45,091 bases of DNA from the NCBI GenBank assembly GCA_003222675.1, contig QHWT01000066.1, positions 36,965 through 82,055 on the forward strand, written 5' to 3'. This document shows positions 35,617-39,693 of the stretch, in pieces (the first letter of the stretch is position 1; each line of letters opens with the position of its first letter). The notes under the pieces are model-generated. The model made no database searches. It was not told the origin of the DNA and saw only the letters and a program-made list of their open reading frames with translations. The DNA is from Acidobacteriota bacterium (lineage in GTDB: Bacteria > Acidobacteriota > Vicinamibacteria > Vicinamibacterales > 2-12-FULL-66-21). Made by a program: the position numbers and the translations under genes.

Positions 35617-36651
35617 GTGGACTATAAGCAGTCGGGCGTCGACATTGCGGCAGGCAACGAGGTGGTCCGGCGGATTCGCGGCCTCGCGCGCGGGACAGCC
35701 ACGCCCGGCGTACTGTCCGATCTCGGATCCTTTGGCGGCTTGTTTCATCTGGGGGCACAGTCGCGGCATGACCCCGTGCTGGTGGCCAGCGCGGATGGCG
35801 TCGGCACGAAGCTGCGTGTCGCATTCATGGCCGGCACACACGAAACAATCGGCGTGGATCTCGTGAACCACTGCGTCAACGACATCCTGGTGCAGGGAGC
35901 CGAGCCGCTCTTCTTCCTCGACTATCTCGCGACGGGACGGCTGGATGCCGATGTCGCGGTGCAGATCGTCGAGGGCCTGGCGCGCGCCTGCCGTGAGAAC
36001 GGCTGCGCGCTGCTCGGCGGGGAAACGGCGGAGATGCCCGGCTTCTACGCGGACGGCGAATACGACGTCGCCGGTTTCATCGTGGGTGTCGTCGAGCGCG
36101 ACCGATTAGTCGACGGGCGTGATGTGGCGCCGGGGGACGTGTTGATTGGCGTCCCCTCATCGGGCCTTCACACGAACGGATATTCGCTCGCTCGGCGCAT
36201 CGTGTTCGAGCGGCTGCGGCTCGGCGTGCGCGACCGCGTGCCCGAGCTCGGCACAACGGTCGGCGAGGCGCTGCTGGCGCCGCATCGATCCTATTTGCCG
36301 GTGATCCGTCCGCTGTTGCCGAGACGCGTCATAAAGGCGATGGCGCACATCACCGGCGGCGGGATTACCGATAACTTGCCGCGCGCGTTGCCGAAGGGCG
36401 CTGAGGCCATTGTTCGCATCGGCGCGTGGGACGTGCCGCCAATCTTCCGCTGGCTCGGCGCCGCGGGCGCGGTGCCGCAGGACGACATGCTCGGCACGTT
36501 CAACATGGGCATCGGATTGATTGTCGTTGTCGCGCCGTCCGATGCGGATACGGTGCTGGCCGCGCTGCACGCGCCGCCCGAACCGACCGCGCGTGTCATT
36601 GGAGAGATTGTCGCGGGCGGTGAGCCTCGCGTGCGCTACGTGGCCGCCTGA
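35617..36651 (+). CDS. purM: Phosphoribosylformylglycinamidine cyclo-ligase (AIR synthetase)
   Basis: The 344-residue enzyme closes the imidazole ring of AIR (step 5) using ATP. The start codon is GTG at 35617 (MDYKQSGVDIAAGNEVV). Conserved family blocks are LVASADGVGTKLRVAF, GVDLVNHCVNDILVQGAEPLFFLDY, CALLGGETAEMPGFY, GVPSSGLHTNGYSLAR and HITGGGITDNLPR. Length is normal. It overlaps nothing and sits 3 bases after the HEAT gene. The next gene begins with GTG 7 bases after its stop. Confidence 0.96.
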   Translation: MDYKQSGVDIAAGNEVVRRIRGLARGTATPGVLSDLGSFGGLFHLGAQSRHDPVLVASADGVGTKLRVAFMAGTHETIGVDLVNHCVNDILVQGAEPLFFLDYLATGRLDADVAVQIVEGLARACRENGCALLGGETAEMPGFYADGEYDVAGFIVGVVERDRLVDGRDVAPGDVLIGVPSSGLHTNGYSLARRIVFERLRLGVRDRVPELGTTVGEALLAPHRSYLPVIRPLLPRRVIKAMAHITGGGITDNLPRALPKGAEAIVRIGAWDVPPIFRWLGAAGAVPQDDMLGTFNMGIGLIVVVAPSDADTVLAALHAPPEPTARVIGEIVAGGEPRVRYVAA

Positions 36652-36658
36652 GGTCCGG

Positions 36659-38344
36659 GTGCACCAGCGCGGGGCTCGTCTGACGGCAGAGGCGGTCGCC
36701 GCGAGCGTGCTGGCCGCTCCCGCGGCCGTAATGATCGCGGGATGTGTGCTGGATGTCGTGCGCCTTCCGCTTGCGCCCGGGCTCCTGGCTCTCGCGGGCG
36801 CGATCGGCGGCGCGGCGACGTTTCGCGCGGTTCTGCGGTCTTCACCAGGGCTCGAGAGCCCCCATCCTTGGTTGGCTGCAGGGATTTTCCTCTCGATCGC
36901 CGCTGCAGTCTGCGGTTACTTCCTCTGGCTCGCGTCACCCTCGCTGCTGCCGGTTGCTGCTGGTCCCGACATCGTGCATCACCTCTCCTTCGTGCACACG
37001 ATTCAGCGCACCCATCGAGTCCCGCACGACCCTGCGATGGAGACCTATCTTGGCGAGATGGTGTATTACACACCCGGGAGTCACGTGCTCGCCGCGACGA
37101 TCGCAACATGGCTCCGGGTTGATGCGATGCGCGTCATCTATTCCGTCATGGCTGGTTCGATCGCGTTAAAGAGCGCGCTGATCTTCCTCGTCACGTTACG
37201 AATCCTGCCCGAATCGAGGTCCGCGATTTCTGCGATTGCGGCGTCCATGCTGGTCATGGTTCCGGCGGAGTACTTCTTTGGATCGATCCTGAAGTTTGGT
37301 TTCTACGCGCAGGTTGTCTCCGAAACCTTCGCCGTCGGCATGCTCCTGGCGGTCGTCCTGTGGGGGCGAACCGTTGCGCGGATCTGGCTGTTCGTTTTCG
37401 CCATGTGCGGAAGCGCCGCGTTTCTCGCCTGGCCCCTGTGGGTGCCGCCGGCGATGCTGGCTTTCCTCTTTTATGTCCTGATGCGAGGCCCCGCAATCAC
37501 CGATCGTCTGCGTGACGTGCTCATCGCGTTCGGACCGATTGTTCTCGTGGGCCTGCTGCATGTCTCGACACATCGAGGAGGTGCGTCGATTTTCGCCAGC
37601 GTCGGACTCGCCCCGGTCCCTTCATGGCAGGTGTTTGGCGCGGCATTCATAGCCATGGCATTCGCCGGCACGCTGATGGCCCTTCGCGAGCCTGTCGCGC
37701 GCACAGTGGTCGTCTTTGCCGCGGCGATCGCGCTGCAGGCGATCGGACTTGCGGCGCTGAACCGGTTGGCTGGTTCGAGCAGCCTTTACCTGCCGTACAA
37801 GATGGTGTACCTGCTCGTCCTCCCAGGTGCGGTGCTTGCGGCCTATTCGCTGGCGCAGTTGACGGCGTTCGTGTCCAGTCGCAGCCGGTTCCTCGGAAGC
37901 GTGTCGTGGATCATCCCGATCCTGATCGCGGCGCTATTGATGTGGGGACGCATTCCGCGCGAGCGCCAGCACAGCCCGATCACCGAATCCAGCCATGGCG
38001 CGGGAGTCTGGGCGCGCGAGCATCTACCTGTTGCGTGCGTCGACTATTTTTCGCGTCACTGGCTGACCGGCTATTGGCTGCATCTCGACGTCCTCGGTAA
38101 TCCGCGCGTGTCCCCGCGGATGCGGGTCGAGACGTTCGAATTCCGCGACACGGTTGCGAAATGGATCGAGGGGCGGGGCGAGCCTTACGCCATCGTCGAA
38201 GACGTATCGTCGCTGCCGCACGAGGTGCGCCCAGGGATGGCGACGCTCTATCGCAACGGTCCCGTAGCGGTGGTCCAACACGCGGGCCGCTGCGCTGATC
38301 AAACCGCTTCGATTCAGGAGTTCGAGAAACATGCCCGACGCTGA
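36659..38344 (+). CDS. Polytopic membrane protein, GT-C-like
   Basis: I start at GTG 36659 (codon GTG-CAC-CAG), 7 bases after the purM stop with TGAGG just upstream. A longer frame from 36521 would overlap purM by 130 bases. The 561-residue product has about 11-12 hydrophobic helices and a soluble C-terminal region of about 130 residues. After the second helix pair comes AGPDIVHHLSFVHTIQRTHR and then YYTPGSHVLAATIA. An acidic residue in the first large loop plus a proline-rich PG-H segment is the pattern of lipid-dependent GT-C glycosyltransferases. The assignment is by pattern only. It may transfer a sugar from a polyprenyl carrier in the periplasm. Confidence 0.7.
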   Translation: MHQRGARLTAEAVAASVLAAPAAVMIAGCVLDVVRLPLAPGLLALAGAIGGAATFRAVLRSSPGLESPHPWLAAGIFLSIAAAVCGYFLWLASPSLLPVAAGPDIVHHLSFVHTIQRTHRVPHDPAMETYLGEMVYYTPGSHVLAATIATWLRVDAMRVIYSVMAGSIALKSALIFLVTLRILPESRSAISAIAASMLVMVPAEYFFGSILKFGFYAQVVSETFAVGMLLAVVLWGRTVARIWLFVFAMCGSAAFLAWPLWVPPAMLAFLFYVLMRGPAITDRLRDVLIAFGPIVLVGLLHVSTHRGGASIFASVGLAPVPSWQVFGAAFIAMAFAGTLMALREPVARTVVVFAAAIALQAIGLAALNRLAGSSSLYLPYKMVYLLVLPGAVLAAYSLAQLTAFVSSRSRFLGSVSWIIPILIAALLMWGRIPRERQHSPITESSHGAGVWAREHLPVACVDYFSRHWLTGYWLHLDVLGNPRVSPRMRVETFEFRDTVAKWIEGRGEPYAIVEDVSSLPHEVRPGMATLYRNGPVAVVQHAGRCADQTASIQEFEKHARR

Positions 38345-38351
38345 ATTGAAT

Positions 38352-38393
38352 GGGGTCAGACCCCGGCGGCTGTCACGACCGGGGTCAGTCCCC
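38352..38393. repeat. Paired REP-type palindromes, transposase 3' side
   Basis: GGGGTCAGACCCC (38352-38364) and GGGGTCAGTCCCC (38381-38393) have their centres 29 bp apart. The second is extended to a GACCGGGG/CCCCGGTC stem (38377-38397). They lie directly downstream of the RAYT stop, and a second pair with the same 29-bp centre spacing lies upstream of the RAYT start (39046-39087). Confidence 0.85.
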
Positions 38394-38403
38394 GGTCGGT
38401 GAG

Positions 38404-38958
38404 TTACACACTGTCAGCGTCGAGCCACAGATCAAATCCCTCGTGCAGGATCCTGGGCCAATCCTGCGGCAGTGGGCATGGTGGTGAGTCGAGTTCGAGG
38501 CACCCGTTGGCTGGCGGTTGCTGGGCAGCGCTGGACCAGGGCCAGTCCTCCGCTCTTGCAGTCAGATTAGCCTTGACCGGATTGCATTCAACATATCGCC
38601 AGGTCGTAAGCAGGTGCCAGCTGTCTTCGATGGCCACGGCCTGATATCGGCTTTGGTACACCGCCCCTTCTCCTTGTGTCCCACGCTCTTCTCGCCAGCG
38701 TTGTGCGTGCGTGCCTGTCAACCAATGCATGAACCTCTGAAGGTCCCCGTCAGCTTCCGGCCATAGCAGAAAATGCCAATGGTTCGACATGAGGCAGTAC
38801 GCCAGAATTCGCATTGGGCATCTCCATCGCGCCTCTGCAACGAGGCGAACGAACACGATATAGTCCTCTGCGTTACTGAACAGTAACCCTTTGCGCGAGC
38901 CGCGGTTGCAGACGTGTTGCACAACTCCACCAGGTGTAAATCTGTGTCGTCTGGCCAT
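38404..38958 (-). CDS. REP-associated tyrosine transposase (RAYT, Y1/HUH family)
   Basis: The 184-residue protein belongs to the Y1_Tnp/IS200-like RAYT group. It has the metal-binding HxH motif in SNHWHFLL, the catalytic Tyr in TTWRYVECNPVKANL, and the usual N-terminal RRHRFTPGGVVQHVCNRG. RAYTs cut and join single-stranded DNA at REP palindromes. It is flanked on both sides by paired GGGGTC/GACCCC palindromes, its likely substrates. A TGCTCC-GTAT-GGAGCA stem (38963-38978) immediately upstream of the ATG contains its GGAG Shine-Dalgarno sequence, so translation may be held down. The gene separates the membrane-protein gene from purN. Confidence 0.93.
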   Translation of the reverse strand: MARRHRFTPGGVVQHVCNRGSRKGLLFSNAEDYIVFVRLVAEARWRCPMRILAYCLMSNHWHFLLWPEADGDLQRFMHWLTGTHAQRWREERGTQGEGAVYQSRYQAVAIEDSWHLLTTWRYVECNPVKANLTARAEDWPWSSAAQQPPANGCLELDSPPCPLPQDWPRILHEGFDLWLDADSV

Positions 38959-39045
38959 GTGATGCTCCGTATGGAGCAGAACAGACTCGCAATCAGCTAG
39001 CCGGCCGTGCGACGGAGTGCAGCACTGGTGTGTAACGGAACGACC

Positions 39046-39087
39046 GGGGTCTGACCCCAGGAAGGGATCCGCATGGGGTCTGACCCC
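39046..39087. repeat. Paired REP-type palindromes overlapping the purN start
   Basis: GGGGTCTGACCCC occurs identically at 39046-39058 and 39075-39087, with centres 29 bp apart. The purN Shine-Dalgarno sequence AGGAAGGG (39059-39066) lies between them, and the ATG at 39073 sits at the left edge of the second palindrome. Thus this palindrome is part of the purN coding sequence. The pair mirrors the pair on the other side of the RAYT gene. Confidence 0.9.
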
Positions 39088-39693
39088 AGTCGACGAATTG
39101 CCGTACTCATCTCAGGCCGGGGCTCGAACCTCCAGGCGCTCATCGACGCCATTGCAGAAGGACGGCTCGATGCGACGATCTCGGTCGTGATCTCCAATCG
39201 CGCAGACGCGCAGGGACTCGACCGCGCGCGCGGGGCCGGTGTGGACGCGGTGGTGATCGATCACCGCGCCTTTGCGTCACGCGCGCTCTTCGAAGAGGCG
39301 GTCGCGCGGGAGCTCCGCGGACGCCGGGTGTCGCTCGTGTGCCTCGCCGGGTTCATGCGCCTGCTCGGCGCGACGTTTCTCGACGCCTTTCCAAACGCGA
39401 TCGTCAACGTCCATCCCTCGCTGCTGCCCGCCTTTCCCGGCGTGGACGCGCAGCGTCAGGCATGGGAGCACGGTGCGAAGGTCGCCGGCGCCACAGTCCA
39501 TCTGGTCACCGGCGAGCTCGATGGCGGTCCTATCGTCCTCCAATCGTGCGTGCCGGTGATGGACGACGACACACCCGACCGCCTGGCCGCGCGCATTCTC
39601 GTCGAGGAACATCGGATTTATCCGGAGGCCGTCCGCATCCTGCTGGATGGGGACCATGAGGTGCAGGGCCGGCGCTTCGTCAAACGGACGTAA
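39073..39693 (+). CDS. purN: Phosphoribosylglycinamide formyltransferase
   Basis: The 206-residue enzyme adds the formyl group to GAR using 10-formyl-tetrahydrofolate (step 3). Catalytic residues are Asn112, His114 (VNVHPSLLPAF) and Asp150 (GELDGGPIV). All three are offset by exactly six from E. coli Asn106, His108 and Asp144. The six extra N-terminal residues MGSDPS are encoded by the REP palindrome at 39075-39087, after which the normal RRIAVLISGRGSNLQ begins. The Shine-Dalgarno sequence AGGAAGGG is 6 bases from the ATG. The gene is separated from the rest of the purine cluster by the RAYT unit, so its promoter may lie in or near that insertion. Confidence 0.95.
   Translation: MGSDPSRRIAVLISGRGSNLQALIDAIAEGRLDATISVVISNRADAQGLDRARGAGVDAVVIDHRAFASRALFEEAVARELRGRRVSLVCLAGFMRLLGATFLDAFPNAIVNVHPSLLPAFPGVDAQRQAWEHGAKVAGATVHLVTGELDGGPIVLQSCVPVMDDDTPDRLAARILVEEHRIYPEAVRILLDGDHEVQGRRFVKRT

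Follow-up and report, generated by a model that had tools for sequence, protein, structure and literature searches.

We analyzed a window of 45,091 nucleotides from a genome of the Acidobacteriota (G000), in which a RAYT-type transposase gene with REP palindromes at both ends is located directly upstream of purN, and judged from its sequence the terminal part of this mobile element apparently now serves as the start of a gene of core metabolism. It is probable that a REP-RAYT unit is resident at the purM-purN junction and that its ends serve there as stop and start. At the level of sequence, this reading is built on the position of the unit, its fixed antisense orientation, the repeat core in the purN frame and, in three repeat classes, the agreement of the purN repeat with the dispersed repeat of the same genome. 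As a model, a Y1 HUH transposase gene with inverted palindromic repeats on both sides would be living at the purM-purN junction of the lineage. The right repeat would carry the purN start or sit just past it and be translated as the first codons, in the window's genome it probably also supplied the Shine-Dalgarno sequence, and the left repeat would often carry or abut the stop codon of the upstream gene.

The RAYT unit upstream of purN in the window

In the window, purM (35617-36651, plus strand; TIGR00878, 399.7 bits with a cut-off of 236), the upstream member of the gene pair that it forms with purN, is followed by a predicted membrane-protein ORF (36521-38344, plus strand), which lies between purM and the RAYT unit. 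The real start of this ORF is probably near 36650 and its stop codon is found at 38342-38344; the term membrane protein is a call from the hydrophobic sequence, and searches of the ORF in Pfam and NCBIfam returned no match. The minus-strand RAYT with a REP doublet at either end and then purN (39073-39693, plus strand; TIGR00639, 240.9 bits) complete the gene order. Among 21 loci compared, a membrane-protein gene without family match separates purM from purN in G000, G001 and G003, the latter two carrying homologues of the window ORF in this position.

The RAYT gene (38404-38958, minus strand, antisense to purN) encodes a protein of 184 amino acids. A Pfam match to Y1_Tnp (E 9.5e-11) together with an intact HWH motif and Tyr122, by alignment the Tyr of RYVE, assigns it to the Y1 HUH transposases, and the NCBIfam model NF047646 (REP_Tyr_transpos) is matched with 73.1 bits (E 2e-20), a score below the curated cut-off of 80. 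As expected of a RAYT, palindromes with further copies throughout the window's genome stand on both sides of the gene. It stands between two inverted doublets of GGGGTCWGACCCC with a spacing of 29 bp in both, exactly as the initial annotation had described: GGGGTCAGACCCC (38352-38364, exact) and GGGGTCAGTCCCC (38381-38393, one mismatch) on the left, and an exact inner copy (39046-39058) and the exact outer copy GGGGTCTGACCCC (39075-39087) on the right. Read outward, each RAYT end consists of GTGTGTAA, about 10 nt, GGGGTCTGACCCC, 16 nt and again GGGGTCTGACCCC, the left inner copy carrying the mismatch. The GTGTGTAA tags are located at 38404-38411 on the minus strand, where the TAA is the RAYT stop codon, and at 39028-39035 on the plus strand. 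When up to two mismatches are allowed, the window holds four palindromes, all at the RAYT, a number that is reached in 2 of 100 shuffles.

The right inner palindrome contains an in-frame TGA that closes the purN frame upstream, and between this TGA and the conserved IAVLISG the ATG at 39073-39075 is the sole in-frame ATG, GTG or TTG. This confirms that the last palindrome overlaps the purN start: the spacer of the right end is AGGAAGGGATCCGCAT and the next G opens the outer palindrome, so that codons 1-5 read ATG GGG TCT GAC CCC. The proposed Shine-Dalgarno-like sequence was also recovered between the two right palindromes (AGGAAGGG, 39059-39066, plus strand). The catalytic residues of the window protein, N112, H114 and D150, were found as annotated, and we take the corresponding E. 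coli positions to be 106, 108 and 144. The six extra residues that had been claimed hold against E. coli only; in relatives that lack the RAYT and have the shortest start, 4 codons precede LGVL, compared with 8 in the window purN, which indicates that the insertion adds four residues (GSDP). These short starts of RAYT-less relatives often overlap the purM stop (e.g., G033, G012, G056, G028).

The same palindrome is dispersed in the 7.16-Mb genome of the window, which contains 42 exact copies compared with 0 in the backward-read control. The pairing predicted for other sites was borne out, as 29 bp is the commonest spacing among neighboring exact sites at most 120 bp apart (8 pairs), followed by 33 bp (3 pairs), 48 bp (2 pairs) and five others with one pair each; in the 33-bp doublets the spacer is, by eye, partly self-complementary. 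In 23 stretches round exact sites we identified 11 doublets at exactly 29 bp with at most two mismatches, two of them at this RAYT, and 10 of the 11 are direct by their center base. The GTAG tetranucleotide of the GTAG-REP superfamily was absent from the 24 nt that precede the first palindrome of each of the 11 doublets, and in its place GTGTGTAA is found, which is exact in 8 of them. Ten of these doublets have CC before the second palindrome and only the one at purN has AT, and the A and T of the purN ATG may be local changes. AGGAAGGG, the first eight spacer bases at purN, also follows the first palindrome of another doublet (G000:C136), which makes it probable that the purN Shine-Dalgarno sequence is a repeat variant. 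The earlier idea that an insertion rebuilt the purN start is supported in so far as the terminal repeat of the RAYT forms the initiation region, but the AT of the ATG is peculiar to the doublet at purN.

RAYTs beside purN across the order

In a survey of 162 genomes of the order, 132 contained PurN at E ≤ 1e-45, and RAYTs were collected at E ≤ 1e-12. A RAYT is located immediately upstream of purN in 26 of the 132 genomes, as judged by eye from contigs and coordinates, a procedure that misses RAYTs on other contigs of broken assemblies, and the orientation is antisense in 26/26. The cases fall into families f1 (4 of 9; G000, G001, G007, G008), f2 (7 of 38; G026, G094, G105, G110, G111, G118, G126), f6 (4 of 26; G048, G071, G076, G079) and f11 (11 of 11; G021, G042, G051, G059, G086-G092), with 0 of 48 in the other families; the RAYT of G118 is split into two matches. 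One further genome (G010) has a RAYT remnant upstream of purN. Rough arithmetic with about 140 RAYT matches, a 1-kb interval and genomes of about 4.5 Mb puts the chance expectation far below one, and this recurrence, together with the 42 versus 0 palindromes, rules out chance or a curiosity of a single genome. The insertion is thus not one event in one genome, as had initially been assumed. Of the 26 linked stretches, 25 have purM upstream of purN, and in G094 it is not within reach, and some loci have intervening genes (e.g., G000, G001, G026). A separate contig scan, mostly of distant PurNs, revealed a RAYT upstream of purN in 1 of 80 loci (L065, probably identical to G021).

G001, from the same genus as the window, has retained the order of membrane gene, RAYT and purN; its palindromes are 38 bp apart and purN has the same kind of start, ATGGGGTCTGACCCC (MGSDPGRR). 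Taken literally, the refuting condition named by the initial annotation applies to G010, which has a similar N-terminus without an intact RAYT. Here, the RAYT is down to 23-24 matching residues, the inner palindrome is still present, and the purN frame contains a TTG in TTGGCGTCTGACCCC after GGAGG (MASDPGRR if used; region LASDPGRR) as well as further in-frame starts upstream. As the remnant and the inner palindrome remain, we read G010 as a probable case of RAYT loss after insertion.

To score the repeats, the stretch from the RAYT to the PurN core was compared by alignment with the opposite RAYT end in reverse complement in the 26 loci, with 200 shuffles for each. Long inverted repeats round the Y1 gene, the mark of a TIRtron with its TIRYT, score higher than any of the 200 shuffles in 15 loci, the window included, and fail to do so in the other 11 (G001, G059, G042, G051, G021, G091, G090, G092, G110, G118, G086). 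G001 is among these although its palindromes are plain to see, and some of the other ten have decayed RAYTs.

All in-frame ATG, GTG and TTG codons were then recorded in 17 loci, namely the 15 above shuffles plus G001 and G010. No in-frame start follows the repeat core in 15 of the 17 (13 of the 15 above shuffles), and therefore any standard start forces translation of the core in these loci. G007 and G088 have one or two in-frame starts after the core, which may stay untranslated there. Between the end of the core and the LGVL codons lie 0-15 nt in 15 of the 17 loci, 27 nt in G007 and 36 nt in G008. The sole in-frame start lies inside the repeat in G000, G001, G111 and G126, and an alternative purN start was rejected for these four, as they contain no other in-frame ATG, GTG or TTG; in the other checked loci additional in-frame starts occur, most of them ahead of the repeat. 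The shortest PurN translations begin with MGSDPSRR (G000), MGSDPGRR (G001), MASDPGRR (G010) and LGSDPQ or MTQLGSDPQ (G008). The remaining ones are VDASQKRSPTPL (G026, G094), MAETAKGSRPHR (G048), MPSEKGSRPPS (G071), MTPDP (G105, G126, G111), VPEKKGYDPF (G076), ..RTDSRPR (G079), VEKGSDP (G089) and VEKGYVP (G087). In G048, purN begins with ATGGCAGAAACTGCAAAAGGCTCCCGACCCC, which resembles the arm of the dispersed repeats of this genome. The repeat is read in three phases at purN, giving GSRP in G048, APDP in G007 and SPTP in G026. At L166 (G007), the same repeat, read in one phase, gives both the C-terminus of the RAYT (KKAPDPFFQFS) and the beginning of the purN frame (KKAPDPFLQFS).

The left end was compared in nine loci in which the repeat is clear and purM is adjacent to the unit. 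In six of them purM terminates inside or at the left repeat (G048, CGA TAG GGG; G111, GTG TAA TGG; G126; G071; G076; G007), in two it does so within 10 nt of this repeat (G105, G008), and in G079 the purM frame continues into the left repeat without stopping there.

The purN repeat is also the dispersed repeat of its own genome in three classes. GGCTCCCGACCCC occurs 45 times in G007 and 38 times in G048, with 0-2 copies in the other 14 of 16 genomes. For GGGGTCTGACCCC we counted 37 copies in G001, 32 in G008 and 12 in G003 (0-2 in the other 12 of 15), and for ATGACTCCCGACCCC, the class with a built-in ATG, 17 in G105, 46 in G126, 25 in G111 and 28 in G124 (0 in the other 10 of 14). These classes are dispersed in the genomes whose purN carries them and nearly absent elsewhere except in G003 and G124, for which no RAYT was found among the matches listed at E ≤ 1e-12. 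Furthermore, the spacing of the purN pair equals the commonest short spacing of the genome in G000 (29 bp) and in G001 and G008 (38 bp). The repeat arms are 96% alike within 12 loci versus 68% between 66 pairs, a measure with an upward bias, as the arm limits were set by aligning both ends of a locus with each other, and the arms of G026 and G094 are identical; this is only suggestive of concerted evolution.

Proposed age and turnover of the unit at the junction

The RAYTs beside purN are clustered on the RAYT trees. On a tree of 60 rows, the 10 purN rows then known need 3 changes (shuffled mean 9.3); on a tree of 72 rows, calculated without 21 far RAYTs of the former and without the broken G118, 25 purN rows need 6 changes, and no shuffle was that low (mean 20.8). 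All eleven RAYTs of f11 fall into a single clade. For six pairs within f11 the dN/dS of the RAYT is 0.11-0.19, and its dS is near that of purN in four pairs and lower in two. The pair G021-G086, in which catalytic residues are lost, is relaxed with a dN/dS of 0.62. As a separate observation, four RAYTs beside purN have no catalytic Tyr but keep an open frame and their position (L178 in G042, L179 in G051, L180 in G021, L262 in G086); three of the four have also lost the first His of HUH, and no flanking repeat above shuffles was found at these loci. The order thereby offers a natural series of intact units, a decayed RAYT with the repeat start kept (G010), Tyr-less RAYTs (G042, G051, G021, G086) and junctions with no RAYT.

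In the genus of the window, the RAYTs of G000 and G001 share 50% amino acid identity compared with 81% for purN, and dS is 1.7 for the RAYT versus 0.84 for purN. G001 groups with G008 (100/96) on a RAYT tree that was calculated without G042, G051, G021, G086, G110 and most RAYTs away from purN, whereas it groups with G000 on the PurN tree. With an AU p of 0.068, this conflict is only suggestive of a RAYT replacement in place. These data do not establish a strictly vertical history of the RAYT, and in this genus the divergence beyond purN and the tree conflict contradict it in tendency.

On the PurN tree (50 loci, compared with 132 genomes in the survey), the label of the 26 RAYT-bearing genomes needs 11 changes, and in combination with the 6 changes on the RAYT tree a repeated gain is possible. 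The stop/start overlap of purM and purN might be a preferred target at which several RAYTs arrived, the survivors being those whose ends happened to give a start. We regard such repeated independent insertion as a serious possibility that nevertheless falls short of an even chance. The three reading phases, the patchy presence in f2 and f6 and the fact that the window RAYT is much further from that of G001 than purN is would fit this scenario. So would G036, from the genus of G026, which has a RAYT-free junction with overlapping GTGA behind apparently the same gene, presumably an oxidoreductase, and the related RAYT units L208, L210 and L214, which are found away from purN and also close to gene ends. 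The clustering of purN RAYTs on the RAYT tree, the retention of the RAYT in 11/11 f11 loci and the similar dS of RAYT and purN in four of six f11 pairs argue against it, and our first choice is an old residence in which the unit was at times lost or replaced. The repeat encodes the C-terminus of a neighboring ORF in L210 and L208.

For an old residence, we infer that the unit entered at a stop/start overlap and that its ends were then recruited as stop and start. RAYT-driven exchange or replacement in place would keep the two ends alike, and the PurN N-terminus would consequently change along with the repeat family. A repeat end as initiation region of a purine-synthesis gene would provide a concrete, testable reason for the unit staying at one site, and purN would be a measurable case of a protein N-terminus changing with a mobile repeat family. 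Going further, if a RAYT left or lost its right end the cell would forfeit PurN, and the REP end with the purN start might in this way tether the unit and make the junction a long-term home site from which REPs spread, with RAYT exchange rewriting the first ~10 PurN residues along with the repeat family; we consider this extended scenario rather doubtful.

The link between RAYT and purN could also be regulatory, if a hairpin of the doublet in the mRNA, or the RAYT acting on the repeat, controlled the expression of PurN or of the RAYT. The 42-nt window doublet folds as RNA at -27.3 kcal/mol with the start codon in the stem, and 0 of 200 shuffles were as low; in a 91-nt context it was 3 of 200. 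Nevertheless, a palindrome pair folds by construction and the homologous region of G001 is ordinary (45 of 200 shuffles), therefore we did not accept the hairpin as evidence of regulation. As G010 has moreover kept purN after the decay of its RAYT, a regulatory link seems improbable to us.

Known REP systems and translated repeats

As far as described in the parts of the cited work available to us, REPtrons and TIRtrons consist of a RAYT or TIRYT with flanking REPs or long TIRs, and the Acidobacteria form one TIRYT group (PMC3733652). REP ends often supply the TAG stop of flanking ORFs, and REPs also occur inside ORFs and at NH2 termini, although many of the NH2-terminal cases are suspected to be extragenic (PMC3733652). 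What the units at purN have in common with them is a Y1 transposase gene with repeats on both sides, copies of which may be dispersed as well; they differ in that the sole in-frame start lies in the repeat in four genomes, in the recurrence of the arrangement at one gene, purN, in four families of one order, and in the absence of a GTAG tag. The REPINs of Pseudomonas are likewise REP doublets with a fixed spacing that are associated with a RAYT (PMC3116915), but these are defined in extragenic space according to the accessible text, whereas here the repeats are mostly under ORFs and the 29-bp doublets of the window's genome are mostly direct; inverted repeat pairs are common in G007, G048, G008, G111 and G126. 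TnpAREP of E. coli and its relatives is an HUH/Tyr enzyme with a cognate palindrome (PMC8266576), which is here predicted from sequence, and the GTAG motif of that system was not seen. The long-term persistence of RAYTs and REPs is debated and a benefit to the host has been argued; RAYTs are said to have been inherited vertically for millions of years with their REPINs kept and are regarded as domesticated (PMC8049555). Vertical descent is only partly supported at purN, and the accessible text of PMC8049555 does not connect RAYTs to the initiation region of a core gene.

Our literature search found no paper linking purN to a RAYT among the matches listed, nothing joining purN, purM, REP sequence and transposase, and nothing on Vicinamibacter with transposase and palindromic repeats. 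Rickettsia palindromic elements (RPE) are palindromes translated inside proteins and share this property with the purN repeats, whereas the palindromes described here are linked to a RAYT flanked by matching repeats. RPE are also named in the available part of PMC3733652.

Translation of REPs is not confined to purN in the window's genome. In 19 of the 23 REP clusters the repeats are spanned by an ORF that is at least 80 codons long and has a GC bias like that of coding sequence. When 18 of these 19 ORFs were analyzed with Pfam, 16 matched families; by positions worked out by hand, the repeats fall inside or between domains of a single ORF in 11 and precede the first domain in 5. REP-encoded inserts in alanine racemase (versus 7 relatives) and PriA (versus 6) are absent from the aligned relatives. 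In the light of these coding-like ORFs and inserts, the REPs of this genome seem to be commonly translated, and purN seems to be the case in which they carry the start. The same data would fit the view that REP doublets are generally translatable insertions in genes, that purN is merely the N-terminal case and that the nearby RAYT is incidental, but the adjacency of RAYT and purN in 26 of 132 genomes makes this highly improbable in our opinion.

The ORFs with palindromes inside or between Pfam domains are L062, L048, L049, L054, L063, L001, L055, L005, L050, L051 and L009, and the matched genes with internal REPs include alanine racemase, PriA, Lnt, a protein kinase, UreD, thiolase, ArsA and others. 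The alanine racemase gene contains a 66-bp REP unit twice, which is absent from the 7 aligned relatives. At the same two insertion points, the G001 alanine racemase (L334) and the G003 PriA (L346) have other short inserts (VASVFRRK; PPEGGSHE..VASAFRRT), which look like a different translated repeat family.
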